A DNA stretch of 64,000 nucleotides from contig NZ_JAHLEL010000044.1 of assembly GCF_020131355.1 (NCBI RefSeq), positions 186,001-250,000 of the forward strand. Reading direction: 5' to 3'. Of this stretch, positions 1,174 through 64,000 are shown piece after piece (position 1 is the first letter of the stretch; each line of letters begins with the position of its first letter). This DNA comes from Pseudonocardia sp. ICBG1293 (GTDB lineage: Bacteria > Actinomycetota > Actinomycetes > Mycobacteriales > Pseudonocardiaceae). The position numbers and the translations under genes are program-made. The notes beneath the pieces were generated by a model, which saw only the letters and a program-made list of their open reading frames with translations, was not told where the DNA came from and made no database searches.

Positions 1174-4100
1174 CTACCGGGCGTCGTCGCCACGCAGCGG
1201 GGGGTCGACGGTGGCCGGCGCCTGGTCACCACCGGGGGGCGGAGCCTCTCCCCCGGGACGCCGTCCCGGGGCCCGCCCGTGCAGTCCCAGGTCGATGACC
1301 GCCGTTGCCAGACGTGGCACGGACAGCGAAGGTGCGTGGATGTCGGGCCGCCAGCGCCGCCGGTAGGCGGCGTAGATCGCGTCCACGGCCCCGGCGGAGG
1401 GTGCGGAGCCGGCGCTCCGGCGCAGACCCCGGCTCACGGCGTGACGTAGCGCGGCCTCCATCTGCTCCGGCGGTTCGCTCCCGGGCCCGGCCGGAGTGTC
1501 GCGATCGGGCTGTCCGACGGCCCGGTCGAGCCGCACGATGTGCTCGGTGATCCGGGCCGCGGTGTCTGTCGCCGTGGCTCCCAGGCGGCGCTGCTCGCGC
1601 AGCCGGCCGTAGACCCGGGCCACCTCACCCCGGTGCACGGGCGGTCCTGCTGTCAACCCCACCTCGGTGCGGCGATACGACACCGCCCGGACGACGAACG
1701 GGTGCAGCACCGCGATCCGTAGGCGAGTCGTCTCGGCGTCGGTCGCCCGGCTCAGGACCTCGGCCGGTGTGGCGCGGCGGACCTCGTCACCGGGGACGAT
1801 CTCCACCCGGATGCGAACCTCGTGTTGCGGCTCGTCGCCCGAGCTGCCGGGCGCGCGTTCCACGACGACGCTGTCGTGAACGGACGCGTACACCACCTCG
1901 ACCGGGAAGTCGGCCGGATCGCGCAGCTCTGCCGGCCACGACGCCCGGGTGCGGATCAGCGCATGGTCGAGCCGCCGCTCGAGCTCGGCTCCGATCGCGG
2001 CCGCGGCTGCCTGATCACCGGCCTCCACGTGCACCCGCAGCCCGTGGGGACCGGCGGCACGCAGGCGGGAGGCCTCAGCGGTCACCCACGCCGGGAGCGC
2101 CGACCGCAGTGCATCGTGAACGACCGACGGGGCGTCGGCCAGATCGGTCACACCGTCGCCCAGAACCAGGACGTGGTCCGGTACCTCCGTCCGGTCGGAC
2201 CGTCCCGTCGGAGCGGGGTGCGCCGGCGCGTCGGGCACCTCGGGAACGGTGAGCCCGCCCTCCGCCGCTCGCGACCAGGCCAGGTCGACCCAGGAGTCGT
2301 CGTCGATCCTGCGGGCGACATCCGTCCACCGTCGCGACGTGGCGAGCGCACGTCCGACGTCCGAACCCGCGTGTGGGCCGAAGATCCGTACCTCGATCGG
2401 GATCAGCGGCAGATCAGCCCGGGACCCGCCCGCATCGTCGAGCGAGCCGAGCTCGGTCATCTGTCCGAACAGTGCCTCCTGCGACACCAACTCGTCCGCG
2501 TCGACCGCCACGACGGCCTGCTTGAGCGCGCCACGGGCCTTCTCCCAGTCCGGCTCGATGTCGAGGTCGTCGTCGGTCAGGACGGCCGAGGCCATCGTTC
2601 CCAGGGCGTACAGGGCATCGGCCAGGTCCGTGTCGAAGGGCGTGTCGTCCGACTCCGCCAGATCCGACACCGAGCGCCGGAACGCCTCGCCGATCTCGTC
2701 GGTCGAGTCGCTCAGGAACGTCTGCACCCGCGCCGGCAGCGCCGCACGCACGAGCGCTGGGGACACCCGCGGCAACAGCGGCGTGCCCATCTTCAACAGA
2801 CCGAGTTCACGTCCGACCTCCGGTGCGAGGATCTGGAGGTAGACGAGCTCGAGGTGACCACGCAGCGCACGGACATCGGCCCACAGGGCACGGGGTGGGC
2901 CGTGCGGATGCTCCGTGCGGAAGGCCTCGGCGACCTCGTCGGCCCAGCCCGCCGCGCCACGCCCGACCGCCGCCCAGAATGGTGCGCGCTCAGGACGCCC
3001 TTCCTCCACGAGCCGTTCCAGCGCGTACTCGAACAGCCGGTGCTGGCCGAAGACCGCCACCCCCGACGTGATCTGAAGGGTCCGGGCGGGCCGATCCGTT
3101 CCCGGCTCCACCAGGACGATCGAGGGATCGGCGACGGTGAGACCGTCGACACCGGACAGCACCTCCCGGAGCCGCTGTCCGGGCCTGCCTGCGGTCAGGG
3201 CGCGGTTCACGATGCGCACGCTCTCCTCCACGTCCGGCTGTGGCCGGTGGTGGTGCTGCTCCCCCCGCAGCACCGCCGACGGTCTGGAGGCGATCTCCGC
3301 GCTCTCCACGTCGAAGTCGAAGGCGTCGGTCACGAGTCGGTAGTCAGGGCCGTCGAGCTCGAGCACATCGGACACCGCCACCTCGGTCTCGATCTCCACA
3401 CCGATGGCGCCACCGAGTAGCCGGCCACGTTCCAACCGCGGCCGACCGTGATGCTCGGCGTAGGCCTTCGCCAGCTCGGCGGTGTACTCCGCCTCCTTCG
3501 GACCGCCGGTCAACGACGGCCCGATCGGACCCAGCCCGGCCCGCCCACGCAGATACTCCGCCAGCTGGTCGAGCTCGTGCCCCTCGGGGAGCGGGGGCAG
3601 TCCCGGCCTCCCGTCGGCTCGGTCCATTCCCCTGCGTACCGCCACCCGCTCGTTGTGGGACAACCGGGGCGGCTCGTGCAGACCGGCCCACGGACGGGCC
3701 GACGACGTGGCGTACAGCCGGTTCGCCAGCAGTTGCACCAGGTCGCGGCGGACGTGTGGACGTCCTCCTGAGCTGTCGATCTCACGCAGCATCGTCAGCA
3801 CCGTCGTGACGGAGGGCGCGTCGGCCTCCGGCAGACCGTCCGCGGCCCGCCGGTCGTCCAGGACGCTCGCCACGTACTCGCGCAGCACCGCAGCATCCAT
3901 CACCTCGTCGTCCAGCTGCCGCCCGATGATGGTCCGATCGGCCCGATCGCCGGTCACCTGCCCGACCCAGACCCGTACCGAACGCCGCTGCCCGGGCCCG
4001 TCCGGCTGCCAGTCCGGCGACCGGCTCGCGCCCGATCCCCGCGACGACACCTCGACCGACACCCGCCGCGTGGAGACTCCCTGGTACAGCGCGCGTGACG

Positions 4101-5626
4101 CCTGCTCCATGGCACCGACGAGCGCATCGTGCACTGTGGTCGCGCGCCGCCGGCCTGCGGCTACGGCGTCCGTGCCGGGCTCGCCGTCTCCACCCCCCTC
4201 GATGTGCACGACGAACCCACCGTTGTCGGGTCGCCCCAGCCGCAGGTAGTGGCTCACCACCTGGTGGGCGAACATCACGAGCTGCATGGTCGGTCCGCCC
4301 AGTCTTCGTGTGATCCCCTCGTCGAACGGCACCTCCACGGGCTGCGGAGCCAGTCCCCCGGCGGGAGGGCGCCGGGGCTCGGCGACGTGTGATCCGGACC
4401 TCGGAGCCGGTGGGACATCGAGGACCGAGTCCCCCGGGTGCACCGAATGTGAGGCGGCAGCCAGGATCCACGCCTGGTCGTCCACCCGCCGGGTGATGCT
4501 CTGCCAGCGCGAGAAGCCGACGGCTTCGCGGCCGGAGCTGCGCGGATCGGTGTCGCGTTCCCTCATCCGTAGTTCGAGCGCGACCAGTGGCAGTGCCGCA
4601 CGACCGCCGAACGTGTCGAGCTCGTCGAGCTCGGTCGTGATGATGCCGCCGACGACCGCCCCGGCCGGGATGACCGTCTGCCCCGGTGGCACCGGCCGCC
4701 ACGCCTGGTCCAGGAATCCCCTGACTGTGAACGGGCTCGGGACGGCGAGCGGTGTCCAGAAGAACCGCCCGCGATCGACGTCGATACTCCGGTCGAGAAC
4801 GTCCTCGGGGATCGTCGCGGAACGGTGGACCGGAGGCTGCGGGTTGCGCCGGAGGACACTCTCGAAGTGCGCGGTGAGGTCGTCGGCGAGATGCTCCAGG
4901 AATGCCTGCACCCGAGGTGGGAGTCCGTCCCGGACCACGGCGATCGGCATCCGGGACAGGGAGAATGCTCTGTTCTTCGCGAGGGTCCCGGTGTCCCGGG
5001 CGAGCGCGGCGACGGCGGCGTGGGTGTAGACGAGTGTCGCGTACCCCTCGAGGGCGACCGCGTCGGCCCACCGGGCCCGCGCCCGCGCCCGCTCGGACAC
5101 ACCCTCAGGTGCCGGATCCGGGTACTCACGGAACCGGTCGGCGACCTCCTCGCCGAACACCCGTCCCTCCTGGAGCCAACGCAGCGTCAACCCGTCCCTG
5201 ATCGGGTTGTGCAGCTGCAGCAGGTAGGCGGCGGTCTCGCGGAAGTGGAGCGACAACCCGAACACCGAGACTCCCACGGTCGGCTGCCGGAGCAGCCGCG
5301 GCATCGCACGATCCACGTCGACTGTGGTGTCGGCGCCGCTGTTCACGATGAACCCGGTGTGTGGGGGGAACAGCGAGCTGACGGTCTGACCGGGTCCCGC
5401 GCTGCGGAGCAGCTGCACGGCCCGGTCCATCTCCCCCCACAGCTCTTCGGCGTCCAGACGGCCCTGCTCGCCCCGCAGCACGGCGACCGGATCGCCCACC
5501 AACTCGATGAACGCGGCGTCCGGGCCACCATCGGTGATGATCTGCACGTGCCGACCCGAGACGTGCACGTCGTGGCTGCTCACGCGCACGTCGAACAGCT
5601 CCACCTCGGTGCCCTGCGCACCCCCG
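1174..5626 (-). CDS. Giant protein, C-terminal segment: two amidoligase-like modules and C-terminus
   Basis: An open frame of about 1,480 codons leads from the left end of the IS to the TAG at 1174, and it is undamaged. Order: the remainder of an amidoligase-like module split by the IS (5626-4400; GTEVELFD at its start); an OmpA-like domain (4220-3950; AGRRRATTV helix, then QRRSVRVW strand); a helical piece (3905-3720); an N module (3690-3440; LSHNERVAVRRGMDRADGR, ELDQLAEYLRGRAGLG, LTGGP); a second amidoligase-like module (3430-2230; GVEIETE); a worn OmpA-like stretch (2175-1760); and a C-terminal helical domain related to modules at 24290-23780 and 18410-17940 (YRRRW, LATAVIDLGLHG). It ends in a glycine- and proline-rich tail. 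No cysteine. It cannot be translated from the upstream part unless the IS is lost, and it has no convincing start of its own. Confidence 0.75.
2230..3430 (-). other. Amidoligase-like module, copy 4
   Basis: The module begins with GVEIETE, the GxExE pattern of the amidoligase (COOH-NH2 ligase) fold. It is followed by a YRLVTDAF strand with an aspartate, then SAEIASRPSAVLRGE, which fits the family's 'ExxSxP' third motif. The later position where active members have a G-x-HVHxG motif reads VDGLTVAD here, so the histidines are missing. This is the only copy with both GxExE glutamates well preserved in a GVEIE context. The family call is inference from motif order; activity is doubtful. Confidence 0.42.
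4400..5626 (-). other. Amidoligase-like module, copy 3 (split by the IS110 element)
   Basis: It starts with NGGAQGTEVELFD immediately after the IS left end, continues VQIITD and IELVGDPVAVLRGEQG, and has TGFIVNSG where active amidoligases have G-x-HVHxG. The N module that should precede it lies on the far side of the IS at 7350-7165. The histidine motif is lost. Confidence 0.42.
5619..5626. repeat. Left flank copy of the short repeat at the IS110 ends
   Basis: CACCCCCG here pairs with CACCCCCCG at 7088-7096 on the other side of the element. It sits in the glycine codons of the GNGGAQG linker of the interrupted module. Confidence 0.55.
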
Positions 5627-5840
5627 TTACCTTCTTGATCAAGCCCGCTGAGGGCTTGCAGGCCGCCGGCCGCGGTATGACTGACTGCCCCTGTCGCCCG
5701 ATGATCTGGGGGGTGTTGTCGCCGTGGCCGGAGGGCGCCAACGACCGCTGATAGAGACCTGACCCGTGTGGTCTGCTCGTAACGTGGCTGCCGGCGCGGG
5801 TGCTCGTGGTCGGCCTGCCGCGACGAGAAGGGAGCGGCGG
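5627..5840 (+). ncRNA. Candidate bridge RNA region of the IS110 element
   Basis: IS110 elements express a bridge RNA from their non-coding end, which guides the recombinase to target and donor DNA (established for the family, shown with IS621). This 214-base region holds a perfect hairpin AAGCCC-GCTGA-GGGCTT at 5641-5657, followed by a GGCCGCCGGCC palindromic stretch. GGGGGGTGT at 5708-5716 is the exact reverse complement of ACACCCCCC at 7087-7095, the right junction, and matches seven bases of the left junction. That is what a guide loop should look like. RNA ends and folding are inferred. Confidence 0.45.
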
Positions 5841-7073
5841 TTGCCCGATCCTGACCAGCACCCGACCGGGTTCGCGGTGTTCTGCGGCCTGGACGTGGGC
5901 AAGTCCGAACACCACGCCTGCGCGGTCGACACCAACGGGAAGCGGGTGCACGACAAGGCCCTGCCCAACGACGAATCGGCGCTGCGCACCGTGCTGTCCG
6001 GGCTGGCCGAGCACGGCGCGGTGCTGATGGTCATCGACCAGCCCGCCTCGATCGGAGCGCTGGCCATCGCCGTCGCTCGTGATCTGGGGATCACGGTGGC
6101 CTACCTGCCCGGGCTGGCGATGCGCCGCATCGCCGACCTGCATCCCGGGCAGGCCAAGACCGACGCCCGCGACGCCCACGTGATCGCCGAGGCCGCCCGG
6201 ACGATGCCGCACACCCTGCGCCGGGTCGGCACCGACGACGAGACCCTCGCCGAACTCACTGTGCTCGCCGGTTACGACGATGACCTGGCTGGGCAGAGCA
6301 CCCGGCTGACGAACCGGCTGCGCGACGCCCTGCTGCATGTTCATCCCGCCCTGGAACGCCTGCTCGGGCCACGCCTGGACCGCGGTGGCGTGCTCGACCT
6401 GCTCGCGGCCGCGCCCACCCCGCAAGCCCTGCGAGAGCTCGGCGCTGACGGGATCGCCGAGACGATGCGGGCCCGGTCGCCTCGACTGGCCCGCACCCTT
6501 CCCGCCCAGATCCTGACCTCGCTCGACGCCCAGAGCCTGACCGTTCCCGGCACGGCCGCGTTCGCCCGTGTCATCACCGGCGTCGCCGGGCAGCTGCGCC
6601 AGGTCCACACCGAACGCGACCAGCTCGCCGACGAGCTCGAAGCCCGCCTGGAGGCCCACCCTCTTGGACCGGTCCTGACCTCGATGCCCGGACTCGGGGT
6701 CAGGACCGCCATCAAGATCCTCACCATCGTCGGCGACGGCTCCGGGTTCCCCACCGCCGGGCACCTCGCCGCTTACGCCGGCCTCGCCCCAGTCACCCGC
6801 CGCTCCGGCACCTCGATCAAAGGCGAAACCCGATCCCAGCGCGGCAACCACGCCCTGAAATCCGCGCTGTTCCTGTCCGCATTCGCCGCCCTGGCCGACC
6901 CCGCCAGCCGCGCCTACTACGACCGCAAACGAGCCGCCGGCAAACGACACAACGCCGCCCTGATCTGCCTCGCCCGACGCCGCACCGACGTCATCTACGC
7001 CATGCTCCGCGACCGCCGCCCCTACAACCCGCCCACGGTCAACAACCCCGATCCAGAACTCGCCGCCGCTTGA
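5841..7073 (+). CDS. IS110-family transposase (DEDD recombinase)
   Basis: A recombinase of 410 residues. The N-terminal RuvC-like DEDD domain opens with CGLDVGKSEHHACAVD (first Asp), followed by VMVIDQP and the conserved KTDARDAHVIAEAAR block holding the last acidic residues. The C-terminal transposase_20 domain has SMPGLGVRTA, a helix-hairpin-helix-like motif, then the AAYAGLAPVTRRSGTS block with the catalytic serine region and a QRGNHALKSALFLSAFAA helix. I chose TTG at 5841 because AAGGGAG lies six bases upstream; an in-frame GTG at 5766 would add 25 arginine- and alanine-rich residues outside the usual family start. The length is normal and no frame damage is seen, so the copy may be active. 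It reads opposite to the giant gene. Confidence 0.9.
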   Translation: MPDPDQHPTGFAVFCGLDVGKSEHHACAVDTNGKRVHDKALPNDESALRTVLSGLAEHGAVLMVIDQPASIGALAIAVARDLGITVAYLPGLAMRRIADLHPGQAKTDARDAHVIAEAARTMPHTLRRVGTDDETLAELTVLAGYDDDLAGQSTRLTNRLRDALLHVHPALERLLGPRLDRGGVLDLLAAAPTPQALRELGADGIAETMRARSPRLARTLPAQILTSLDAQSLTVPGTAAFARVITGVAGQLRQVHTERDQLADELEARLEAHPLGPVLTSMPGLGVRTAIKILTIVGDGSGFPTAGHLAAYAGLAPVTRRSGTSIKGETRSQRGNHALKSALFLSAFAALADPASRAYYDRKRAAGKRHNAALICLARRRTDVIYAMLRDRRPYNPPTVNNPDPELAAA

Positions 7074-7144
7074 CGAACCCATAGAGACACCCCCCGCCCA
7101 CGAGGACGCTCCAACGCCTCCCGACCGTGAAGCTCGGCATAGGC

Positions 7145-7158: not shown

Positions 7159-10100
7159 TCCTGCCGCGGACCTCCCGTCAACGCAGGCCCCACCTCACCC
7201 AGACCGGCCCGCTCCCGCAGATGATCCACCAGCTGGTCGAGCTCGCGCCCGAACGGCAACTCCGGCAGACCGGGCCGCGGATCCTCCCGCACCATCGCCG
7301 CACGCACCGCCGACCGCTCGTTGACATGCAGCTCGGGAGCGTCCACCCGGCCCCGCCACGGGTACTCCGGCGCGAGATCCCCCGGCCCGGCCGGCACGAT
7401 CCCGTCGTCCGCCGCCGGCCGCGACCCCTTCGGCGACGCCGGCTGCCCGTCGCGGACCTGCTGCTCCGCCTCGTGCCGCGACCGGTCGGCGCGGGCACGG
7501 GCGGAGCGGGCGTCCGCCTCGGCCGCGGCCCGCTCGTCGAGGAGCCCGGCGAGGTCGTCCAGCCGCGCGGCGGCGTCGGCCCGTCCTGCGTCCCGGTGCG
7601 CCTGCGCCGCGGACCGGGCGTCGGTCGCGGAACGGGTCCCGATGATCTCCCGGTACGCGGGGTCGTCGAGTCCCGCGACGAGTTCCACCGCACGGTCCTC
7701 CAGGTCGGACAACCGGCGGCCGGATCCGGTCGACGCGCGGAGATCCTGCTCCGCCCGGGACACATCGAGGGAGTGCTCGGTCGCCACCTCGGCGAGGCGG
7801 AGCCCGTGCCGCGCCGCGGTGCGCTCACGCTCGATCCGGGCACGCACCGTCGTGATGGCGTTGCGGTGGTCGCGCTCGGTGACGGGATCGGTCACGTCCC
7901 GCCCGTCCTCCTGCCGTCGCGCTACGTCCCGCTCCACGGTGGCGAGCCGCCGCTCGGCACGCTCGACGGCGAGCGCCCGCTCCATCCGCACCTGCGTGCG
8001 TTCCCAGCGCTCGCGTGCGTCACGGATCTCGGCCGCCAGGCGCGAGCGGTCGTCGAGGAGCCCGGCGAGGCGCTCCAGCCGGACCGCCGCGCGGGGACGG
8101 CCGTCCGCGGCGTGCGCGGCGGCCCGGTCCCGGGCGTCGTCCGCCTCGACGACGACGTCGAACTCCGCGCGCTCGGGCCCGGCCAGGTCGTCGGCGAGGC
8201 GGTCGCGGCGGCGGCCGAGGGCGGCGAGCCGGTCCTCCGCGTCCGCCCACGCACGGGCCGCCCGGTCCCGGACGGCCGCCGCGTCGTGCACGGCACTGCC
8301 CAGCGCGCCGAGCCGTTGCGCGGCCAGCGGCTCGTCGAGGAAGAACGTGAGGCCGTGCAGGGTCAGCTCGGAGCGCAGCTCCGTGGGCCGGGCGGGCGCG
8401 ACCGCGGGCCGGGGCGCCGCGTCGTCCGCGGGCCGGACGAGCACCGTCCCCTTATCCGGCGGGATCGACAGGGTCAGCACGTAGTGGGTCGCCCCGCCGA
8501 CCTGGCGGACCGGGCCGGACGGACGGTGGATGTTGGCGCGAGGATCGGCCAGCCCGGGGCGCAGCGCCTCGCCACCGCCCCGCTCACGTTCCACCGGGTC
8601 GACCTGCCCGGTGTTGCGGACGCCGTCGCCGTGCCGCAGGTCGGGCACCCCGGCCGGCCCCCATTCCAGGGCGTGCTGGTCGGTGAGGCGCTCGAACCGG
8701 GAATCCGCACCGGTCGTCCCGTAGTGCATCGTCGTCTGGTGGTCGAGGTCGAGGGTGTCCGGTTCGTGGAACACGGCGCTCAGCCGCACGGTGAACCGCT
8801 GCGAACGGTCCTCCGGGTCGTAGACGGTCGCGACCTCCTCCACCCCGGCGAGGACGCGGCCGACGATCGTTCCGAAGAGCTCCGGGCTGAACAGCACGTC
8901 CAGCGCCCGGGACACGCCGGCCGAGTCCCGGAGCCCGGCCGGTACGGCCGGGTCGCCGTGCAGCAGGGCCTGTGCCTCCGACCGCAGCCGCACCGCGTCG
9001 GTGCCTGCCAGCACCATCGCCCGCCGGCCCGGTACGTCCACCGCACCGAGGACCCGGTCCCCGGCCGCACGCCGCAGCGCCTCCCCCGCCCGGTCCGGGT
9101 CGGCCGACGAACGGAGCCCGGTCGCGGGCACCCGGAAGACGAGGTCCTCGGCATCGCTGCGCGGCCCGGCCACGACCCGGTGCCCGCGCTCGACGTCGAG
9201 CTCGAAGCGGACCCGTCCGCCCAGCAGCGCCACCGGGCCCGCGTGGTTCACCGCGCGGGTCTCGCGCAGCGCCGTGCGCCGGTACCGGCGGCGGTCGGCG
9301 CTGCCCGAGGGTTCCAGTTGCGGCCCACCGATCCCGGCGTGCGACGCCCCGGGGTTCTCCGCGTCCGCCCCCCGGGCGCCGAGCATGCCGTGCAGCTCGG
9401 CCTCCGCCCCGGCCGCGTCGACGACGCCCTCCTGCCGGGTCAGGGCCCCGTACTGCTCGTTGCGCATGCGCCACCGGTCCAGGACGACGTCGACGACGGC
9501 GACGTCGTCGAGCGGGACGGCCCGGACCCGTGCGATGACGTCGTCGAACCCGGCGATCGTCCGTGCGCCGTGCATCGTGGTCACGCCGTGCCCGAGCAGA
9601 CCGCCCAGGGTGCTCCCGACCAGGTCGCCGACCATCCAGGTCTCGAGCTGACCGGCGAGCGAGGCGACCTGGTCGGAGGACAGTCCCGGCACCCCGTCCC
9701 GGCGCAGCCGGTCGACGAGGTCCTGCAGCACCGGGGTGTACCGGTCGGCGTCCTCGACGTGGTGCATCCCCGGGATCGGGTTCGACGGGACGATCGTCGG
9801 CGGAAGGGCCCACCGCCGGGCACCGTCGTGCCGGACGGCGGGCAGCGGCGGGGGTAGCAGGCCCCACTCCCGCATCTGCTCCTCGGGGACACGCAGGTGG
9901 GCGCCGTCGGGGTGGAACACCCGCTCCACCGCCCGGCGGCCCGCCGGCTGCACTGCCGGGTGTCCGCTCGCCCGCACGATCGCCAGCGCGGCGAGCAGGT
10001 CCCGGGTGTGCTCGGGGCTGTGCCGGGCGAAGGTGAGCACCGCGTCGACGAGGAGGTTCTTGCGGCGGCCGGTCGCGACGAGGGTGACCAGACTGGCCGC

Positions 10101-11430
10101 CCGCACCCGGTGGGTGTGCAGCGTCGCGGACAGGCTCACCTCGAAGCCGGCGGAGACCACGCTGCTCCCGCCGGTCTCCCGGGAGACGGCGAACCGGCTG
10201 GTGAGCCCGCCGCGACCGGCGACCCGCGGCGCGTCCCCGGGCTGCATCGCCGGGTCGTAGGACAGGTCCGCCGAGCGGAACCCGCCGCCGGCTCCCAGCT
10301 CGTGGCGCACCGACGTCGCCTGCGCGACGCTCTGGTCGCTGCGTCGCAGGATCGCGACGTCCCGGGGCACACCGTTGCGGTCGTCCCCGGCGTCGTGGTC
10401 GTACCGCGCGTCGAACAGCCGGGCGGACGCCGTCACGCCGGTCACGAGGTCGTGGAGCCTGCGCTGGTAGGCGAACTCCGGGCCGCGTACCGGGTGCCCG
10501 AACAACCGGCGCAGGTGCCCCGGCAGCCACGAGCCGACAAGCGCGTGCGTGGCCTCGAGGCCGGCGCCGCCGGGCAGCGTCGCCGCCGCGTCGCCGTCGG
10601 AGGCCCGTACCAGGGCACGATCGACCCCTTCGTGCAGCTGCGCGACGCCGCCGAACCAGCTGAAGGTCGTGGTGGCCCGCAGCGGCAGCGCATCGTCCGC
10701 CGGACCGGGGTCGGTGGGATCGAGCAGCCGGGCCGCGGTCTGTGGCCCCGACACGGGTGCCGCGACCAGCTCGTCGGGGGCCAGGGTGATCGACCAGGCC
10801 GACTCGACGGCGTGCCGTCCGGTCTCGGGCGCCGCGCCCTCCGGGCCGGTCAGTTGCGGGACGTGCCGCCCCGGGAGACCGGGCTGCAGGAGCCTGCGCC
10901 ACGGGGCCTCCCGCTCCCAGACCCGGACCTCGATCGTCCAGCGCGACCGGCCGGTCACGAGGTGGGCGTCCGCGGCGTGGTCGCTGGTCTCCCGCGAGCT
11001 CACCAGCATTCCGGCCGTCATGTCGGTGCCCCGGCGGTAGCTGTACCCGAACCGGCCGATCGGACCGACGCCCGCCTCCTCCGCCGCACCGAGCACGGTG
11101 CCGCGGAACCCGAGATAGGTGCGGCGGCTGGAGCCGGCGGACTCCGTGGTGCCGTGCCCGGACCCGTGGCTGCCCTTGACACGGGCCGAGGACAGTGGCC
11201 CGGTGTCGGTGGCGTCGAGGATCTCCTGCCGCACCTCGACGGTGGCGAACGTGTGCCGGCGCAGGCCACGGCGGACGAACGTCCGGCGGATCGCGTGCTG
11301 GACCGTCTCGTCCAGGTGCACCGCGAGCGACACCTCGCTGAGGAACGCCTCCAGCCGTTGGCCGTTGTCGCCGGCACGGGCCAGGTCCGAGCCGTGGGCG
11401 AGCCGGGCGGCACCGCGTTCGGGGGCGTGG
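7151..11430 (-). CDS. Giant protein segment: beta-rich region, coiled coil, N module
   Basis: About 1,425 codons in one frame. The first half is beta-rich and glycine-rich with paired strands (GRFGYSYRRGTDMTAGMLVS, ATTTFSWFGGVAQLHEG, FRSADLSYDP, GFEVSLSATLHTHRVRAA). It has the same style as the beta-rich parts of the tandem units at the N-terminal end, but no catalytic motif that I recognise. From 8340 to 7430 the protein becomes a long charged helix with heptads. It ends in an N module (7350-7165; LHVNERSAVRAAMVREDPRPG, ELDQLVDHLRERAGLGEVGP, LTGGPRQ). Upstream it joins the next segment at an indel near 11430 (DELI, then HAPERGAARLAHGSD). By chance this frame stays open straight through the antisense of the IS to 5580. 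Confidence 0.68.
7430..8340 (-). other. Coiled-coil region of the giant protein
   Basis: About 300 residues rich in Ala, Arg, Glu and Asp with regular heptads, for example DRLADDLAGPERAEFDVV and RLATVERDVARRQEDG. Two parallel 40-residue sub-repeats share LERLAGLLDDRSRLAAE and LDDLAGLLDERAAAEAD. It may be a spacer or oligomerisation rod. Confidence 0.6.
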
Positions 11431-41850: not shown

Positions 41851-41852
41851 GG
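41847..41852 (-). other. Frameshift at a six-base homopolymer
   Basis: Six C on the coding strand after GTG (FGVPP) put LDRPGLRGGAP out of frame; seven would restore it. This is the typical site for slippage or for a long-read homopolymer error. Confidence 0.7.
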
Positions 41853-46476: not shown

Positions 46477-47350
46477 CGCGGTAGAGCACCGACATCCGCC
46501 GGACCGGCTCGTCGCCCTCGAGCTCACTGGGCACGATCTCGATCTGCGTCCGGTCGTACTGCTCGGCGACGACGCGCAGGCGCTCCCGCACGACCGGGTG
46601 ATGACGGGCGGCGAGGAGGTGGCTGTTGGAGTAGCGCCCGCCGGCGTGCCCGTCCAGGACACCCGATCCGAACGCGGCGTCGGCGTCGGACAGGATGTCG
46701 TCGCCGTCGAGATAGAGCCCGCCGAACCGGTGAAGGATCTCCATCCTGGCGATGTCGGACGCCTTCGCCCAGCCGCCCTTGGTCCCGCGCAGCATCTCGG
46801 AGCGGAACTCCGCGTCGAGTTCGAGCATCGGGGCGTCGCGGTGGAAGAGCTCGTCGATCGAGGCCAGCCGGACCCGGATCTCTGCCGTCCGGTCCAGCAT
46901 CTCGGCCAGGGCGGGGTCCGCGGCACCGGGGTCGCGGCGGACGGCCGCGATCTGCTCCCGGGTGAGATCGGTCCAGAGAACGGCCGGGCCGTCGAACGCC
47001 GCCCGGGACCGGGTGAGACCCGCCATGAAACCCTGTGACGGCCCCCGGTGCGGGGACGCCGGACTGCCGAACCAGATGAAGTGCAGCAGCCGGGGGGTCT
47101 CGCTCTCCCCGCGCGCGCCGAGCTCGGCCCAGGTCTCGGCCTCCTCGAAGCGGTCCCAGTCCTCCCGGATCACCGGGGTGTCGCCGGTCAGGTCCGCCGT
47201 CCGCAGGGGCGCCGTGGGCGCCTCGGGGGCAGCGAGATCGACGGCGGCGAAGAAGGAGCCGAGCGACTCGGCCGGGATCGTGTCCTGGTCGAGTCCGCGC
47301 AGGAAGCCCGGCGCGGCGGGCGGCGACAGCAGGCCGAACAGGTCCGGTCC
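46010..47350 (-). other. DxD glycosyltransferase domain, copy 1 (broken near 46476)
   Basis: RLLHFIWFGSPASP, then SDIARMEILHRFGG with GGLYLDGDD at 46697-46723, the fullest DxD-type site of the three copies. The indel near 46476 falls after the catalytic core, so only the C-terminal helices are out of frame. Confidence 0.7.
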
Positions 47351-53300: not shown

Positions 53301-56300
53301 ATCTCGAGCGCGGCGTTCTTCGAGTTCGCGCCGTCGCGGCGCGGGTCGTGGCGGAAGAACCGGCGGGCCCGGTGCGGCTCGTCGATCCGGTCCGGCCGGG
53401 AACCGACGAACGGCGCGAACAACGGCCGGAGGACCCCGCGGACGACCGCGCCGACGCCCGTCGCCGCCGGACGGTGCAGCAACCGGGCGGCCTCGACGGT
53501 GAGGTCCGGCGCCTGCTGCACGGTCTCGTTCTCCGAACGCAGCGGCGGATTCCCGCGCCGCGCGAACGGCTCCGGCGCCGTATCGCTCCAGCGGGCCGTG
53601 GCGGCTCCGGTCCCGGGTGCGTCGCCGGCCGGCGGGTCGGCGGCCGGCGCGGGCACGATCACACCCACCCTTCCCGGCAGCGCAGCGCCGTCCGGGCCGG
53701 GCGTCGACCAGCTCCCACCGATCCCGACGTGGAAGCTCGCCGGGTAGTCCCAACCCTCCAGCGGGCGGGCCGTCGTCGTGCTGGTGGCGTTCGCCAGGAG
53801 CGCGGCGGTACTGCTCTCGGCCGCACCCCACTTGTAGGTGGCGCCGGCGCTGACGTAGTAGAGGCCCTGGGCATAGCCCTGGAAGGTCGGTCCGAGGTTG
53901 GTGTCCTTCCGGTACGCCACACCGGACTCGTCGCGCTGACCGGTGCCGGTCGTGCTGCTCCCCGTGCTGTTCGGGATCTCGTGCCGGCGCCCGGAGCTCT
54001 CGCCGACGGACGCACCCACGAACACGTCCGGCGCGCCCCGGACGATCTCGTTCATCGGGAACCGGGCGCGCCCGGTCGTGATCTCCTCGGCGTGGGTGTC
54101 GAGGAACCTCCGCAACGGGCCCGCAACGAGATCCGGGTCCACCCCGTGCTCGGCGGCGAGGCGCTCGGAGGCATGCGCCACCACCAGGTCCCGGCTGTCC
54201 TGGTCCAGCAGATGGACCGCGCCGGCCCGCCGGCGGGCACGGGCGCCTTCGGTGATCTCGGCAGGATCGACACCGCGACGGGTGGAGTCGGTCCCGGTGG
54301 ACGGTACGGGCTCGGGCTTGACCCACAGCCGGGCCGTCACGACACCGCCGCCCTCCAGCACGGTCGGCGGACCCGACTCGGGCGCGATCGTCGCGAACAC
54401 CCGGCGCCGCACGTCGTGGCGCTGGATCGGCCCCGAGTGGGTCCGGACGTCGACGACCTCCTGCTCACCCACCGTACGGTTCGTCGTCGTGGTCGTGCGG
54501 TAGCGGTTGTAGGCGGGCCCGCCACCCAGCCCGAACACCCCGGGGAAGAACACCCCACCCATGACGGTGAGCCCCAGGCCCCGCCAGCGGCCGCGGAGCC
54601 GGTCGTACCGCGTCTCGACGGTACGGATGTCGCGCTGCTCGGCGGTGCCCTCCCGCGGCGGGTAGGACCACCAGGCGACGCCGTCGGTCGGGCCGACCGT
54701 GACCGTCACCGGCCGGGACGCGCGCGTCGGTCCGGACGACACCACGGAGAACGTGCGCGACTCCGGCCCGGTCAGCAGGGACTGGTCCATCTCGTGCAGC
54801 CAGCTCCGGATCTCGTCCGCCGCGGGGTCGCCGACCCTGATGTCGAGTCGGGTCCGGAGCCGCTCGGCCAGGTCGTCGAGACCCTCGAGCTGGGCGTGCA
54901 GCACGTCGTCGGGCCGGGACCACACCGGGCGCTCGGTGCCGGGATCGCGCAGGGTCGCCTCGGCGCCGGTGCGCTGCCCGATCTCCGCGGTGGCCCTCGC
55001 CTCGCGCCGGGCGTGTCCCGGGTCGCCGGGCAGATCGAGGTCGAGTGCGAAGCGGACCCGGTTACGGGCGGTGTCGACCTCGACGCCGCTCTCGGCCACC
55101 GAGGTGCTGCGTCGGTAGGACCGGACCGATCCGAGATCGCTCCCGCGGCCGGTCAGCAGACCCGCCGCCCGGATCATGAGATGCACGAACAGCAGCGGGA
55201 TCGAGATCGTCAGAGGCTCGCTGAAGACGAGGCCACGGCCGTGCGAGACGCGGCGGTCCGACAGCGACCGTTCCGCACTGCGCGCCAGGTCGTGCAGGCT
55301 CCGGCGCGCCGGCTCGGCGTCCGGCTCCACCGAGACGGTCCGGACCCGGATCCGGGCACCCTGCGCGGCCTTCGCGCCGAACTCGACGACCTGCACCGCC
55401 CCCGGGTCGCGCCGCAGCTCGGCGGCCAGGTTCGAGTCCGACAGGGCGGCGTCGACCATCGCGCGGGCGCCGTCCACGGCCCGCTCCGGCAGCGTCACCT
55501 CGTCGAGCAGGGCCCGGGCCTGCGCACGGACATCGGCTCCGTCGACCTGCTCGACACGGGCCCGCTCGCTCGAAACGGGTGGCGACGCGCGGAGCTCACG
55601 TGCGCGGGCCTCGCGTTGCGCTGCGGCGGCGGGGTCGCGCAGCTCGTCGAGCCGGGCGTCGCTCAGCTCGCCGACGCGGGGATCGCTCGCGCGGGCCTCC
55701 ACCGCTCGGGGATCGGTCAGCCGGCCGTCGAAGGTGAGCTCGGACAGCTCGATCGCACCGGCGAACTCGGGGGCGGGCGGTGCGGGGGTCACCGGCCGGG
55801 ACTGCGGAACCCTCAGAGCCTCCCGGGGCAGTGCCTCCGAGGCCCGCGGGACCGCCGGCTCGGCCAGCGGGTTCTCCGCACGGTAACGACCAGAGGCGAA
55901 CTCCTGGCGCAGCGGCGTGGTCGAGGACGGGTCCAGGTGGCGGGCGAACACCCCCTCCACTGCGGTGTCGTCCAGCATCCGCGCCGGGGAATCCCGGTGA
56001 GCGTTGAGCAGCGCGTTCACCGCCGGAGACATACGCGGACCGACGACGATCCCCGTGGTACCCGACTCCCGTCCCTCGGCCAGGCGCGGCAGATAGGGCA
56101 GGTCCGCACCGGCGCGCACCGGCAGCGGCACGGCAGCGCGCACCTCGATCCCCTCCGGGGAGACACCGCGGTCGACCACGATCCCGCCCCAGGCGTACTG
56201 CGGCACCCACTTCAGCAGCGCGTCCCGGGCGTCGGCGTCGAGTCCACGGACGTCGACACCGAGGTTCTCCTGGACCTCCCTGGCCCCGTCCTCCAGGACC

Positions 56301-57040
56301 ACACCCAGGTCGGCCAACCTCCGGTAGCTCTCCGGCCCGACCAGCTCGGGAACGCCCCAGACGCCTACCCGGGAAGGATCTCCGGTGGCCTCGACCCACG
56401 CCTCGACCTGTTCGAAGTCGATCTGCGAGTCGGGGGTGCGCAGGAGCACCCGCGGCGGCGCGTCACCGACGACCCGCCCACCCCGGTCGCCCATCACCGT
56501 CCGCGGCTCCGGCGCCACCACCGACACCACCGCCGACGCCGACCGCGGCGGCCGTTCCGCCGGGTCGAGAGTGGCGGCGGCCCGCGTGGTGATCACGACG
56601 TCCCGGCCACCGGGCACCTCGGCCAGGATCTCCCGCAACCGGGTGGCGGTGATCTCGGCGCGCACGGCGCCGGTCCGCTCCCGGCGGGCCGCGTCCCACC
56701 ACGCGCCCCGGCCGTCGCCCACGACCTCGAACCGGCGCCTCGGCCGGTCGGATCCCGCCTCGGCGTCACGCCGGTCCGCGGCCACCAGCGACTCGACCAG
56801 CCCGCGCAGAGCCGCGTCGTCCTCCGGCGCGATCGTCCGGCCGCGGCGGCCGAACCCGACCCGGTGGGTCCCGGCGCCGTCACCGGACCCACCCGTCCGG
56901 CCGGACGAGTCGGACCCGTCCGACGAGTCATCCCCGCTGCCGTCTCCGTCCGATACCTCGGAGCCGGGTTCGTCGGTGACCGGCCGGGAGTCCTCCCGGA
57001 CCAGCGCCCGAGGGTCGCTCCCCTCCGTGTCCGGACTCGA
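46476..57040 (-). CDS. Giant protein segment: second tandem unit, amidoligase-like module, glycosyltransferase 1
   Basis: The longest undamaged stretch: about 3,520 codons with no stop, no indel and no cysteine. Order: an acidic Ser-Gly-Asp linker; the second 6 kb tandem unit (56971-50990) with OmpA-like domain, decayed glycosyltransferase, hydrophobic helix and beta-rich region; a TPPPAP linker; a W module (50720-50390); an N module (50240-49900); an amidoligase-like module (49925-48800); an OmpA-like domain (48590-48290); a helical piece; a C module (48030-47800; RMAVISEMRRQRLPSSRE); an LPAGS hairpin domain (47720-47440); and the catalytic part of glycosyltransferase 1. The order N, amidoligase-like, OmpA-like, helix is the same as at 26480-24300 and 7350-3720. 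Such a long clean frame beside broken ones argues for recent damage. Confidence 0.78.
48800..49925 (-). other. Amidoligase-like module, copy 1
   Basis: GPELEVAD replaces the GxExE start in part, followed by VRLETD and IAEIVASPMAALRGEQ; the HVHxG position reads AGFSVREG. The most worn of the four copies. It is identified by alignment with copies 2 and 4, so a catalytic role is unlikely. Confidence 0.4.
50990..56971 (-). repeat. Second copy of the 6 kb tandem unit
   Basis: Aligns module for module with 57940-64000 at an offset of about 7,030 bases at the start and 6,960 at the end. Most blocks are 75-85% identical in protein by eye, e.g. GGRDVV, LDPSSTTPLRQEFASGRYRAENPL and FGQRADxLxLRQxRTLGNPRIVAVD. 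It carries about 30 extra residues near 55650 (DPRVGELSDARLDELRDP). Confidence 0.85.
55870..56450 (-). other. Decayed glycosyltransferase domain, copy 2
   Basis: AWVEATGDPSRVGVWGVP start and VFARHLDPSSTTPLRQEF end, with YAWGGIVVDRGVSPEG where active copies have GGLYLDGDD. A single aspartate is left of the metal cluster. Confidence 0.5.
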
Positions 57041-58890
57041 CCGACCGGCCGACCGACTCCGGCCGCGGCGCCGGTTCGGGTGTCTCCCCACCCAGCTCCC
57101 GTAGAAGGCGATCCGCGACCTCGGCGTCCTCGACGAGCGAGTCGCGGGCGGTGAGGCCGGCGGGCCCGGTCCGGCTCGGGAGGAGGTCCTGTGGAACTGA
57201 CACCTCGGGCTCCGGGATCGTCGGGTCCTCGACGATCTCGGTCCGGTCGTCCATGGAGGTCGTGTGCGACGCCCGGGTGCGTGCCTCGAACGCCTCGGCC
57301 GCGACGTCCGCGTCCGTGCCGACGGCGAGGTCGGCCGGCGGGTCCGTCCGCCGGAGGTTCTGCTCCGGGATCACATCGCCGACCTCCGGGGACCACACCA
57401 CGATCTCCGGCACCGGCGGTGGTGTCACCACTCCGTCCGGCTCCTGCGGAGGCGTCACCACGATCTCCGGCACATCCGGCGACGACGGGCGCGTCCCGTC
57501 GGCGGTCTCGGGGGTACCGGCCCGGGGGGCGCTCGTCTCCGTCGTGGCCGGACCACCACCGGTGTGCGTGTCGAGTGGTCCGGGCGCTCCGCCGCGCAGG
57601 CCGGGTCGGCCCGGTGTCCTGCCGTTGTCCTGCAGCAGCTGGTGGACCAGGAACCCGGCGTGTCGGTCCGCCTCCAGCCGCCCGATCTCCTCCGTCGGCA
57701 GCTCCGGCAGCGCCGCCGCCTGTTCCGGATCCGCCAGCAGCCTCGCCCGCAGCTCCGCGACACCCCGGTCGAACGCCGCACCGCGCGGCATCTCCAGGCC
57801 CGGCACCAACCGCGTCATCGCCTGCCGCAGCTCGTCCTGCACCCGGGAGCTGAGCTCCGGTACCCACAATGTCGGCAGGTCGTCCGAGCGCGCCGGTTCG
57901 ATCCGATCGGCGGCATCCCCGGGGACCGGGGGCGGGGCCTGGGTGCGCGGGGCCGGGGGTGGTGTCGGCGGGCTGTAGAGGTCGGTGCCGGTGCCGCTAC
58001 CGCTGCGGTCGCTGCCGGTGTCCCCGGGCGGGGTCCCGGGCTCCTCGGGCTCCTCCTCGATCGCCGGCAACCGGGTACGGCCCGGGTCCGGCCGGACGGG
58101 CCGCCGGTCGGCGAGGAGGTCGGCCAGCGCGGTGTCGTCGCCCTCGAGGGTCATGGGCTCGGCGAACTCGCGGACGGTGTCGTCCGTGGTCCCGCTCCGG
58201 TGCTCGTACTGCAGCGTGTGCCGCGCCTCGACGCGGAGCAGGGTCATCTGCGACGAGGTCTCGTCGGTGCGGGTCGTCGAGTGCTCGACCCCTGATGCCC
58301 GGGTACGCACCGAGTGGACCGGCGCCGCGTCCACCACCGAGGTGTAGGGGGTGTACTGGGAGCCCTCGTTCACGCCGTCGCCGTCGGTGTCGAACTCCGC
58401 AGGCCGGGTGCGGGCCTCGAGCGAGGCGTAGCTGTGAGCGGCGAAGTAGCGGCTGTGGTCGCGGCCGCCGGACCGGGTCTCGGCCACCGAACCGGTCCGG
58501 GTGCGCTCGATCGGGCCGTGGACCTCGACGGCGGCGAAGTCGGTGCGGATCGTCACCGCGGAGTAGCGGCCACGGTCCAGCTCGACCCGGCGGCCCTCGG
58601 GCCCCAGCTGGGTCCGCAGGTTCTCCGCGGTGTTCGAGCGCGACAGCTCCAGAAGCAGCGTGCGTCGGTCGACCGGCGGCATCACGTCCGGATCGGGCTG
58701 GCCGTTGGGCCCGTGGGTGATCGGGTCGAGCTCCCGCGGGACTCGCAGACCCGGGCTCTGCCGGACCCGGATCCGGGCGTCCTCGGAAAGACCAGGAGCC
58801 AGCCCGGCGGCCCGCCGGGCCTCCCGCCAGGAACCCTCGACCCGCTCGGTCCGTCCGGTGGCGGGCTCCGGGATCGCCCGCAGCGCCCGA
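57040..58890 (-). CDS. Giant protein segment: end of first tandem unit, N module and linker
   Basis: About 615 codons. It starts inside the beta-rich region (VMPPVDRRTLLLELSRSNTAEN) and passes a DTDGDGVNE loop (58365-58391) that fits a calcium-binding DxDxDG motif. The unit ends in a TPPPAPRTQ linker. Then follow an N module (57860-57590; LSSRVQDELRQAMTRL, LRGGAPG) and a long Pro- and Asp-rich linker with three PEIVVTPP-like repeats. Both ends are indels: near 58890 one base appears to be missing in CTCGTCGGGCG; near 57040 PESVGRSV is followed in another frame by SPDTEGSDPRAL. Confidence 0.65.
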
Positions 58891-61800
58891 CGAGGGTGCC
58901 GGTCGCCGTGAAGTCGGCTCGGGCATGCCTGCCCCTCCCGAGGCGCTCCAGCAACGGATCGAGCCGCCGCAGCACCGATCCACGGCGCGCGACGGCGTGG
59001 ACGTCGAAGGTCAGGTCCAGGTCACGCACCGACCGGGTCCGGTCGGTGATCGTGTCGGTCCCGGACGAGGAGCGCGTCGTGGACCGTTCGGTCGACGACG
59101 TGTCTATGGACTCGTAGTCGACGAAGTAGGCGGCGAACATCCTCGGCCGGGCCGCGCTCCCGTCACCGGCGAAGGCACCGGGACCGGCATCGTGACGCAC
59201 CGACCACTTCCGCTCCTCGATCTGCCCGGAGCTCTCGGTGCTGCTGGGCTCCACGGTCGACTCGACCTTGGACGGGGCGTCGCCGAGCCGGCGAGTCGCT
59301 CCCAGCGAACCCCGCACATCGACCAGCAGGTCCAGCGACCGGCCCCCGGCGGTCGCGGTCACCAGCAGCGGCCAGCCGTTGCGCAACAGGTCGGGGAGCA
59401 GAGCCTCCATCCGCGCGGGGTCGTTCGTCGGACCGAGGTCCCGGTCCTGAACCTGCGTGCGCAGGACCTTCAGCGGCCCGGACGCCCCCTGCTCCTCCCC
59501 CCATCGCTCCAGAACCCTGTTCAGCTCGGCGTGGAAGTCCGCGACGACGCCGCTGCGGTGCAGCTCGACATGGCCGGGGGCCCCCACCTCTTCGGCCGGG
59601 ATCACGTCGTCGGGCCGGTGCTCCCCCTCCTGCTCCGGGAGCGAGGCGCGGTACGCGGCAGTCTCCGACGGCGCCAGGAACTCCAGCGAGGCGTCGTCGA
59701 GCACGCCGACGTCATGGATCTCACTGGCGGGGACCCACCGCTCCAGGCCGCCCGGCACCTCCACCCACCGGGTCGAGGTGTGCTCGCGCTTGCGCAGGCC
59801 GTGATCGATGCCGAACGGGTCGACGACCCGCTCCCGTACGCGCCCCTCGAACTCGTCCACGTAGTCGTAGACGACGTGGAAGCCACGCTCGGTATGGGTG
59901 CGCTTCTGCGGCTCACGAGTCACCTCACCCGATGTCGACCGGGTCGCCCGCAGGCGCTGGATCTGCAGGTCCCCGCCGAAACCGGCGGCCAGGTAGTCCA
60001 GGACCCACGCCAGACCCAGCGCGCCGACCCGGCCGCGCCAACCGTCGTGGGTCCCCACCTTCCGGCCGACGTCGACGCCGGGGTCGACGGTGTGGGTGAA
60101 CCTGTGCTCCGGGTCGACGGCGACGATCCGCGGGTTGCCCAGCGTGCGGCTCTGACGCAGCCGCAACACATCGGCGCGTTGCCCGAACAGTCCTTCACGG
60201 CCACTGGTCGTCGAGTGGACGTCACGGTGCCGGGCCACGGCCTCGTCGACGATGGACTGCTGGACGTGCGGTGTGGTCGAGGACTCCAGGATCTCCAGCG
60301 CGGCGTTCTTCGCGTTCACCCCGTCGCGCTGCGGGTCGTGGCGGAAGAACCGGCGGGCCCGGTGCGGCTCGTCGACCAGGTCCGGCCGCGTGCCGACGAA
60401 GGGCACCGCCAGCGTCCGGAGGATCCCCCGGACGACCGCGCCGGTCCCCTCGGCCGACGGGCGCTGCAGCAACCGGGCGGCCTCGACGGTCAGGTCCGGC
60501 GCCTGCTGCACGGTCTCGTTCTCCGAACGCAGCGGGAGATTCCCGCGCCGCGCGAACGGCTCCGGCGCCGTATCGCTCCAGCGGGCCGTGGCGGCTCCGG
60601 TCCCCGGTGCGTCGCCGGCCCGTGGGTCGGCGGCCGGCGCGGGCACGATCACACCCACCCGCCCCGGCAGTGGAGCACCCGCGGGGCCGGGCGCCGACCA
60701 GCTCCCCCCGATCTCCACCGTGAAGCTCGCCGGATAGTCCCAGCCGTGCAGCGTGCGGCCCGCGGTCTCGGTCGTGGCAGTGGCGAGCATGGCGGCGGTC
60801 CCGGCCTCCGCACCACCCCACTTGTAGGCGCCGCCCGCGCTGACGTAGTAGAGGCCCTGCGCGTACCCCTGGAAGGTCAGACCGGCGTTGGCGTCCTTCC
60901 GGCGGGTGATCTGGGACTCGTCGCGCTGACCGGTACCGGTCGTGGTGGCCCCGGTGCCGTCCGGGACGTCGTGCCGGCGGCCGGAGAGCTCCCCGACGGA
61001 TGCGCCGATGAACACGTCCGGCGCGCCGCGGACGATCTCGTTCAGCGGGAAGCGTGCCCGGCCGGCCGTGACCGTCTCGACATGGGAGTCGAGGAACTGC
61101 CGGAGGGACGTCACGACCGTGTCGATCTTGCCGGCCTTGTCGGTCCCGTCGATCGCATCGACCCTGCCGGGCTCCAGCACACCCTCGTCGAGCAGGCGCC
61201 GGACCACGTGCTCGACGACCAGATCACGGCTGTCCTCGTCCATCACGTGGAGGGCACCGGACCGCGTGCGGGCACGGGCGCCCTCGGTCACCTCGTCGGG
61301 ATCGACACCACGCCCGACGATGTCTCCGTCACCGGTCGAGAGGGCCGGCTCGGGACGGGCCCACAACCGGGCCGTGACCGGGACGGTGATCTGATCCGCG
61401 GGGGGCGACGGTCGGCCGTCGCGGTCCGGGCCGGTCGGTCCACTCGGGTCGGATGCGATCTGCGCGAACAGCTGACGGCGCACGTCGTGGCGCTGCAGCT
61501 CCCCGGTGTACTCACGTCTGCCGACGACCTGGCCCTCCTGGGCCGCACGGTCGGTCGTGGTGGTGGTGTTGTAGCGGTTGTACACCGGGCCGCCGCCGAC
61601 GCCGAACGTCAGCGGGAAGAACACCCCGCCCATGACGGTGAGGCCCCACCCACGCCACCGGCCCCGGGACCGGTCGTACCGCGTCTCGACGGTGCGGGTG
61701 TCACGCTGCTCGACGACGGCCTTCCGTGGCGGATGCGACCACCACGCCACCCCCGTGGTCGGCCCGACCGTCACCGTCACGGGCCGCGACACCAGCATCG

Positions 61801-64000
61801 GCCCGGACGCCACCGAGAACGTGCGCGACTGCGGTCCGGTCAGCAGACCCTGGTCCATCTCCCGCAACCAGGTCCTGATCTCGCCCGCCGCGGGATCACC
61901 GACCCTGATGTCCAGTCTCTCCCGCAGCTGTTCACCGAGCGCATCGAGCCCCTCGAACTCGGTGTGCAGGATGTCATCGGGCCGGAACCACACCGGGCGC
62001 TCGCTCTGCGGGTCACGCAGGGTCGCGTCCTCGGCGGTGCGCCGCCCGATGTCGACGGTGGCCGTCGCCTCACGCCCAGGACGGGTCCGGCCACCGGGGA
62101 GGTCGAGCTCGAGCTCGTAGCGGACCGTGTGCCGGGTCGTGTCGACCTCGACTTCCTTCTCCGTGACCGACGTGTGACGGCCGTGGGTGCTGACCGAGCC
62201 CAGGTCGACCCCGCGGCTGGGCCACAGACCGGCCAGCCGGATCAGGAGGTGCACGACCAGCAGCGGGAGCGAGATCGTCAACGGCTCGCTGAACACCACA
62301 CCGCGCCCGTGCGAGACCCGACGGTCCGACAGCGAACGCTCAGCACTGTGCAGGACGTCACGCAGCCCTCGCCGCGGTGGCTCGGCGTCCGGTTCCACCG
62401 CCACGGTGCGCACCCGGATCCGGGCGCCCTGCACACCCGACCCACCCCCCGCGAACGGCATGCTCTGCTCGGCCTTCGCGCCGAGCTCGACGACCTGCAC
62501 CGCCCCCTGGTCACGGCGCAGGTCGGCGGTCAGCCGCTCGTCCGACAGCGCCGCATCCACCATCGCGCGGGCGCCTTCCAGAGCTCGCCTGCGCAGCCCG
62601 ACCCCGTCCAGCAACCCGTGGGCCTGTGCACGGACCTCGGCGCCGTCGACCGGCCCGACGTGCGTCCGCTCGATGGCGAACGGCGTCTCACGAAGGTGAC
62701 GGTCGCGGGCTGTGGCGCGGGGGTCGGCCAGCCGGCCGTCGACGGTGAGGGCGGACATCTCGATCGCATCCGCGAGCTCGGGAGCGAGCGCCGCGGGGGT
62801 CGCCGACCGGACCGGCGGGAGACCGAGCGCCTCCCGGGCCAGATCCTCCGACGTCCGCCGGACCTCCAGCTCCACCGGCTCCGCCTGCTCCACCAGCGGG
62901 TTCTCCGCACGGTAACGACCCGAGGCGAACTCCTGCCGCAGCGGCGTCGTCGACGACGGATCGAGGTGGCGAGCGAACACCCCCTCCACAGCGATGTCGT
63001 CCAGCATCCGCGCCGGAGAGTCCCGATGAGCGTTGAGCAGCGCATTCACCGCCGGGGACATGCGCGGACCGATCACGACCCCCGTCGTCCCGGTGTGCCG
63101 ACCCTCCGCGAGCCGCGGAAGGTAGGGCAGGTCCGCACCGGCACGCACCGGCAACGGCACCGCACCACGGACGTCGACCCCCTCCGGGGAGACCCCACGG
63201 TCCACGACGATCCCACCCCGGGTGTACTGCGGCACCCACTTCAGCAACGCGTCCCGCGCGTCCCGGTCGAGCCCACGGACGTCGACACCGAGATTCTCCT
63301 GGACCTCCCTGGCCCCGTCCTCCAGAACCACACCCAGATCGGTCAACCTCCGGAAGCTCTCCGGCCCGATCTGCTCGGGCACGCCCCACAGCCGCACCCG
63401 GGACGGATCACCCGCCGCCTCGACCCACGCCTCGACCTGCTCGAAGTCGACCTCCGAGTCGGGAGCGCGGAGGAACACCTGCGGCGGCGTGTCACCGACC
63501 ACCCGACCACCCCGGTCGCCCATCACCGTCCGCGGCTCCGGCGCCACCACCGACACCACCGCCGACGCCGACCGCGGCGGCTGGTCCGCCGGGTCCAGAG
63601 ACGCAGCGGCCCGCGTGACGACCACGACGTCCCGCCCACCGGGCACCTCGGCCAGGATCTCCCGCAACCGGGTGGCGGTCTCCTCCGCACGCAGGTCACC
63701 GACCTGCTCCCGGCGGCCGGCGTCCCACCACCGGCCCCGGCCGTCACCCACGACCTCCAACCGGCGCCTCGGCCGATCGGACCCTGCCTCGGCGTCGCGC
63801 CGATCGGCGGCCACCAGCGACTCGGCCAGCGTACGCAGAGCAGCAACATCCTCCGGCGAGATCGTGCGGCCACGCCGACCGAACCCGACCCGATGGGAAC
63901 CGGGGCCGTCACCGGACCCACCCGACCGGCCGCCCGACGAACCGGACCCGTCCGACGAGTCATCCCCGCTGCCGTCGCCGTCCGAGATCTCGGAGCGGGA
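58890..64000 (-). CDS. Giant protein segment nearest the N-terminus: first tandem unit
   Basis: About 1,700 codons, open to the right edge, with the true start outside the window. Order: an acidic linker; an OmpA-like domain (63900-63510; RRRLEVVGDGRGRWW, TATRLREIL, RSASAVVSVV); a decayed glycosyltransferase (63480-62890); a helical stretch; a 20-residue hydrophobic helix (62222-62284; SLPLLVVHLLIRLAGLW); a strand-rich domain with a glycine-rich GLTVMGGVFFPLTFGVGGG turn (about 61600); a QGYAQGLYYVSAGGAYKWGG barrel-like stretch (about 60850); and a RFTHTVDPGVDVG block. I recognise no catalytic motif in the beta-rich part, which in composition is closest to surface or pore-like proteins. No cysteine until the frame is lost near 58890. 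Confidence 0.72.
62222..62284 (-). other. Hydrophobic helix in tandem unit 1
   Basis: PLTISLPLLVVHLLIRLAGLW, about 20 mostly Leu/Val/Ile residues in an otherwise soluble chain. The second unit keeps it at about 55155-55220 (SIPLLFVHLMIRAAGL). Candidate membrane or translocation segment. Confidence 0.55.
62890..63480 (-). other. Decayed glycosyltransferase domain, copy 1
   Basis: AWVEAAGDPSRVRLWGVP start, YTRGGIVVDRGVSPEG at the DxD position (about 63190-63225), and a VFARHLDPSSTT end. It follows an OmpA-like domain. The fold is inferred by chaining through the RFGGIW copy at 12900-13570 to the active RFGGLYLD copies. Confidence 0.5.

Follow-up and report, generated by a model that had tools for sequence, protein, structure and literature searches.

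Giant actinobacterial proteins that join several toxin domains in a single chain have been described (Zhang et al. 2012, PMC3482391). The part of that paper drawn on here also includes a PF04488-type glycosyltransferase among the toxin domains of the type VII secretion system (T7SS; WXG) in Actinobacteria, and notes peptidoglycan binding of the OmpA type among toxins; the parts of PMC11573180 and PMC12419801 drawn on do not mention such giants. The DNA analysed here, a stretch of 64,000 nucleotides from Pseudonocardia sp. ICBG1293 (the window), comprises bases 186001-250000 of contig C44 (706,940 bases) in the host genome G000 (7.96 Mb, 86 contigs). Coordinates above 64000 denote sequence beyond the right edge of the window in the same numbering. 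The window is occupied by a giant ESX-linked gene (1174..64000, minus strand; start outside at 71506), most plausibly a single ancestral gene that is disrupted in this bacterium. It probably represents an ESX-exported giant multi-effector of a kind described before in actinobacteria, with the unusual size of about 22,950 codons in its ancestral form. What is new is a very large, disrupted example; the giant actinobacterial multi-effector kind itself is already known.

The gene shares with the giant multi-toxin proteins of PMC3482391, as far as that source is represented here, very large size and the combination of several enzymatic toxin-type domains in one chain: three glycosyltransferase copies, a zincin-type motif (recognised by eye) and a modelled amide-ligase fold. 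The example in that source carries lethal-factor-like metallopeptidase, caspase, ART and MCF1-SHE domains, whereas the gene described here possesses glycosyltransferase, amide-ligase-fold and OmpA-like modules, reaches about 23,000 codons and is disrupted.

Extent, export context and relatives

The coding tract consists of eleven long minus-strand open frames in series (697 to 4,293 codons each), from past the right edge of the window down to position 1174, and their in-frame parts show coding-type codon usage. The first frame is open from 71563, with a GTG start at 71506 preceded by GGAGGGAGG; the last terminates at 1174. The distance from 71506 to 1174 is 70,333 bases, or about 22,950 codons after subtraction of a 1,475-base IS110 element, with a product of ~2.4 MDa reckoned at 105 Da per residue. 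An earlier note on this DNA, made from the window alone, had proposed a coding tract nearly filling the window with its start outside, and a single ancestral protein above 2 MDa. Both proposals are supported, and the rightward extension that it suggested leads to the start at 71506. Its placing of the protein among the largest bacterial ones known is reasonable; still larger ones exist in Chlorobium and Omnitrophota.

The N-terminus of the giant gene matches WXG100_2 (PF25547) with 48.9 bits (cut-off 27, E 9.1e-13), the only match to this domain among the tract pieces scanned. EccB (78500-79909) and EccD (79905-81416) are located upstream on the strand of the giant gene, EccB at a distance of ~7 kb, and EccB lies on the same strand 7-13 kb upstream of the giant gene in all five genomes examined. 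An IS5-family transposase is found further upstream, at about 82930-83802. Downstream, a gene for a T7SS-associated protein (NF033532; 510..1115, minus strand; E 8e-30; 105.9 bits against a cut-off of 85) starts about 60 bases past the end of the giant gene, its start at ~1115 being picked by eye. The same gene is found at most 300 bases from the end of the giant gene in G000, in the same-genus relatives G042 and G011, and in G245, G153 and G133 from other genera, and at 3.1 kb in G110; for G042 the distance is counted from the end of coding after a frame change of its own. In G153, four consecutive matches to the T7SS-associated protein follow the giant gene (C1:859596-863132), and G133 also has four. 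From its N-terminal domain and gene context the product is predicted to be secreted, in agreement with the secretion proposed in the earlier note. The gene shares its N-terminal domain and downstream partner with other WXG100_2 proteins encoded beside NF033532 genes, but most relatives among the matches listed have far shorter frames.

Within the genus, the N-terminus is matched in three of 62 genomes, the host included. Both same-genus relatives keep the layout of the giant gene, with open frames of 9,586 (G042) and 8,708 codons (G011); the G042 gene, too, apparently shifts frame close to its end (C1 near 3525.2 kb). A homologue search in named genomes yielded a single locus, in Pseudonocardia sp. 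MH-G8, in its second scan and none in the first. Of 200 genomes sampled from the family, 155 have a match to the N-terminal profile (E 0.001), many in short frames, and at least seven open frames exceed 10,000 codons (19,808; 17,426; 16,768; 16,056; 15,988; 12,699; 11,825). The giant gene is longer than every open frame among the listed matches of this sample. The four longest among these (G245, G153, G110 and G133, of three other genera) are each a single open frame of 16,056 to 19,808 codons without any N, which supplies the unbroken homologues that the earlier note had asked for. The third codon position has the highest GC in 39 of 39 blocks in G245, 34/34 in G153, 19/33 in G110 and 30/32 in G133; the GC content of G110 is 65%, with little difference between its first and third positions. 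None of the six relatives whose sequences were retrieved has separate genes at the break points. The constant start, the constant neighbours, homology across breaks and the single frames in relatives together support one ancestral gene, with start, T7SS-type N-terminus and downstream gene common to relatives.

Modules of the giant protein

The protein is a mosaic of duplicated modules, all on the minus strand within the window. Three glycosyltransferase copies of TcdA/TcdB type bear out the glycosyltransferases proposed earlier. Copy 1 lies at 29894..31381, copy 2 at 26876..28252 (continuing over the frame shift at 26.9 kb) and copy 3 at 45966..47443 (cut by the frame shift at 46.5 kb). Piece F as a whole matches the TcdA/TcdB-type and Gly_transf_sug profiles with 35 and 34.9 bits (cut-offs 23.6 and 23), and an acidic Y-x-D-type motif after FGG is aligned in all three copies. 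These glycosyltransferases are closest to toxin and secreted-effector families.

Amide-ligase-fold modules joined to an OmpA-like domain are present in four copies in the window, and homology indicates a fifth beyond its edge, at about 65297-67096. The copy at 24301..26235 was modelled, with a predicted local distance difference test (pLDDT) score of 70.9. Fold searches matched the model to a glutamine-synthetase-like amide ligase (actin-crosslinking fold) and, after it, to an OmpA-like domain. The copies at 48050..49936 and 3709..5628 (the latter adjoining the IS110 element) are homologous to the modelled one, and a more divergent homologous copy occupies 1555..3534. The OmpA-like assignment of the earlier note is thus supported by the predicted fold; its amidoligase-like assignment agrees with the modelled fold, but sequence profiles give no such link. 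The actin-crosslinking domain of MARTX and VgrG (4dtd, 4dtf, 4e1f) matches the model with 13-14% identity over the aligned part, a likeness in predicted fold only. Repeated amide-ligase-type modules also occur as Amidoligase_2 arrays in the giant WXG100_2 proteins of G153, G133 and G245, which have the same N-terminus. The window modules differ from these arrays in matching neither PF12224 nor those copies by profile, and in additionally bearing the OmpA-like half.

The module at 19839..21695 contains the zincin-type motif HEVLHFFGLSD, noticed by eye, and its aligned paralogue at 22108..23454 is without HExxH. For the metallopeptidase of the earlier note the evidence is one HExxH-type motif, in one copy of this pair; no family match was found for the module in the Pfam profile scan.

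A large module is duplicated in tandem, its upstream copy (58068..63895) being cut by the frame shift at 58.9 kb and its downstream copy (51035..56866, found by alignment) lying in a single frame; the main part of the two shares 71.6% amino-acid identity. Synonymous (dS) and nonsynonymous (dN) divergence between 58.9-63.9 and 51.9-56.9 kb amount to 0.43 and 0.17, a ratio of 0.39 over 1,622 codons (blocks 0.23 to 0.62), and the continuation of the duplicate in piece B has a ratio of 0.62 over 270 codons. As judged from sequence comparison, protein-level constraint operated after the tandem duplication. The structure model of this module (pLDDT 28.8) was left unused. A further module of ~1,900 residues, shared with G042 and G011, occupies 8289..13983 and is cut by the shift at 11.4 kb. 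Size and GC content had first suggested a nonribosomal peptide synthetase or polyketide synthase, a candidate rejected after no Pfam domain of these systems was found in the eleven pieces at E 1e-5. The 'Lonely Cys' family, a name used in database annotation, had no match in NCBIfam scans of the eleven pieces, and the phrase 'lonely Cys domain' was not found in the literature searched.

Insertion element, stop codon and frame shifts

The tract is not the uninterrupted coding sequence presented in the earlier note, which overlooked both an IS110 insertion and a nonsense codon. The IS110-family element fills about 5621..7095 (1,475 bases, plus strand) and encodes a transposase in an open reading frame at 5766-7073, with the domains PF01548 (DEDD_Tnp_IS110, E 8.6e-48) and PF02371 (Transposase_20, E 1.3e-20). 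Its ends were set by comparison with 22 other copies, and the frame change at the insertion equals the element length modulo three. The frame drawn through it in the earlier note is spurious, since the GC content keeps antisense frames open. The host genome contains at least 41 IS110 matches (34 full-length at 100% rounded identity, the copy in the gene included, 3 partial at 100% and 4 at 81-82%), a lower bound, as 40 of 701 first-look candidates were scored. With at least 34 full-length, near-identical copies genome-wide, the IS110 expansion looks recent. Two copies abut head to tail on C53 (154287-157232), and one on C47 (260193-262939) appears to be in two parts separated by about 1.3 kb of other DNA. 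Among the 22 other aligned copies, 20 have no insertion or deletion and one has a two-base insertion; the copy at C14:459803-461280, situated ~1.1 kb from the end of a contig, has three single-base deletions, which point to a local error in the consensus.

The in-frame TAG is located at 41233-41235 (minus strand) and was recognised by coding score and codon usage. Past the shift at 41.8 kb the new frame scores +41.5 against -55.5 in the old one, and coding resumes beyond the TAG. A codon-usage change-point scan together with a Viterbi frame scan placed nine frame shifts in the giant gene, near 58.9, 57.0, 46.5, 41.8, 32.8, 26.9, 22.1, 18.5 and 11.4 kb. Homology spans six of them, as the earlier note had claimed for all. 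The shift at 58.9 kb is bridged by the internal paralogue and G042, that at 57.0 kb by module order only, that at 46.5 kb by glycosyltransferase homology, those at 26.9 and 22.1 kb by homology (E 1e-7 and 7e-11) and that at 11.4 kb by G042 and G011. Five more frame changes are clustered at 72.9-78.5 kb, between EccB and the giant gene.

Origin of the breaks and function of the protein

The WXG100_2 N-terminus would direct the protein to export by ESX (type VII secretion). In the remaining chain, with its glycosyltransferases, amide-ligase-fold plus OmpA-like modules, zincin-type motif and other modules, the enzymatic parts would modify target proteins or wall peptides, and the OmpA-like parts would tether the chain to peptidoglycan. 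Its most likely role seems to be that of an exported multi-effector belonging with the giant polymorphic toxins. This reading is preferred because of the giant multi-toxin proteins, the PF04488-type WXG toxin domain and the OmpA-type binding in the cited part of PMC3482391, and the patchy presence in the genus also fits it. In this genome the gene is disrupted by the IS110 insertion, the TAG and the nine shifts of frame; of the shifts, some may be consensus errors.

Alternatively, most breaks may stem from errors in the assembly consensus, with the gene a single open frame save for the IS110 element (and perhaps the TAG) and intact until very recently; we regard this as possible, though rather unlikely. 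One automatic rule gave six frame changes in about 70 kb of the tract (one of them, near 68.7 kb, in low-complexity sequence and probably spurious), 22 in 341 kb of coding sequence at 20 other loci of the host genome and three in 127 kb of coding sequence in two relatives. The host loci set against the relatives speak for error, as do the IS110 copies with three deletions and with the two-base insertion and the prevalence of shifts among the breaks; the 20 loci, however, were picked for holding IS110 copies and may be biased to decayed places. Against error stand the 20 IS110 copies free of insertions and deletions, and the AMP-binding matches of the host (n=76), of which one contains a stop and a handful are partial; in G042 (n=61) none contains a stop and several are partial. 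A partial-length AMP-binding match of the host with an in-frame TGA is found at C44:57789-58364. The IS110 insertion cannot be a consensus error, and the TAG is not an insertion or deletion. The ratio of nonsense codons to shifts was dropped as an uninformative test of decay: about 2% of single-base changes in the giant gene would create a stop, so nine shifts against one stop cannot tell decay from error. With such mixed controls some shifts may be consensus errors, and genome-wide sequence error is not established as the whole cause, the controls differing in degree.

The protein might also serve as the producer's own wall-bound scaffold or wall-working machine, with amide-ligase-fold domains to modify the peptides of peptidoglycan and OmpA-like domains as anchors of the chain. 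Five module copies with a predicted fusion of amide-ligase and peptidoglycan-binding folds would suit this role, as would the ESX context, but the affinity of the glycosyltransferases to toxin and effector families, the presence in just three of 62 genomes of the genus and the description of similar giants as multi-toxin proteins (in the cited part of PMC3482391) make it unlikely. The structural polymer envisaged in the earlier note is just one option. Several head-to-tail genes, suggested by the overlap of some breaks with a stop and GTG or ATG, are very improbable, as homology and codon usage run through those points, relatives combine this start domain and downstream gene with a single open frame, and WXG100_2 is matched once among the pieces scanned. 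Programmed shifting, through which one protein would be made, agrees with the strong coding signal on either side of the breaks; it is scarcely credible, given that relatives stay in a single frame across the sites homologous to the shifts at 58.9 and 11.4 kb and that the IS110 element cannot be bypassed in that way.

Several points weigh against a disrupted, exported multi-effector. At the shifts at about 41.8, 32.8 and 18.5 kb the continuity of the gene is backed by codon usage alone, without homology, contrary to what the earlier note had stated for every break. The break rate of the tract is not far above that of the 20 other loci, so that decay is not shown break by break. The putative amide-ligase assignment comes from a single model (pLDDT 70.9) built from five sequences; four copies gave no Pfam match, a sequence search of the PDB gave none either, and hhalign of the window module against the Amidoligase_2 copies of relatives was not significant, with shallow profiles (6 of 11 stretches >150 residues used). 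Single glycosyltransferase copies score 18-22.6 bits, just under the Pfam cut-offs.

Taken further, members of the Pseudonocardia family might export single chains of 1.5 to >2 MDa via ESX, as multi-enzyme machines that work on walls or attack targets, in which every repeated amide-ligase-fold domain has a peptidoglycan-binding domain as its partner. Genes of this sort might grow by tandem duplication of modules and be lost by insertion and frame breaks, with intact and broken stages side by side; this generalisation is offered tentatively and is doubtful as a whole. A single export locus, in which start domain and downstream partner are constant, links genes of about 9,000 to 23,000 codons, and the relatives with open genes make type VII export of a ~2 MDa chain directly testable. 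The gene of Pseudonocardia sp. ICBG1293 provides a clear case of a giant gene grown by duplication and afterwards interrupted.

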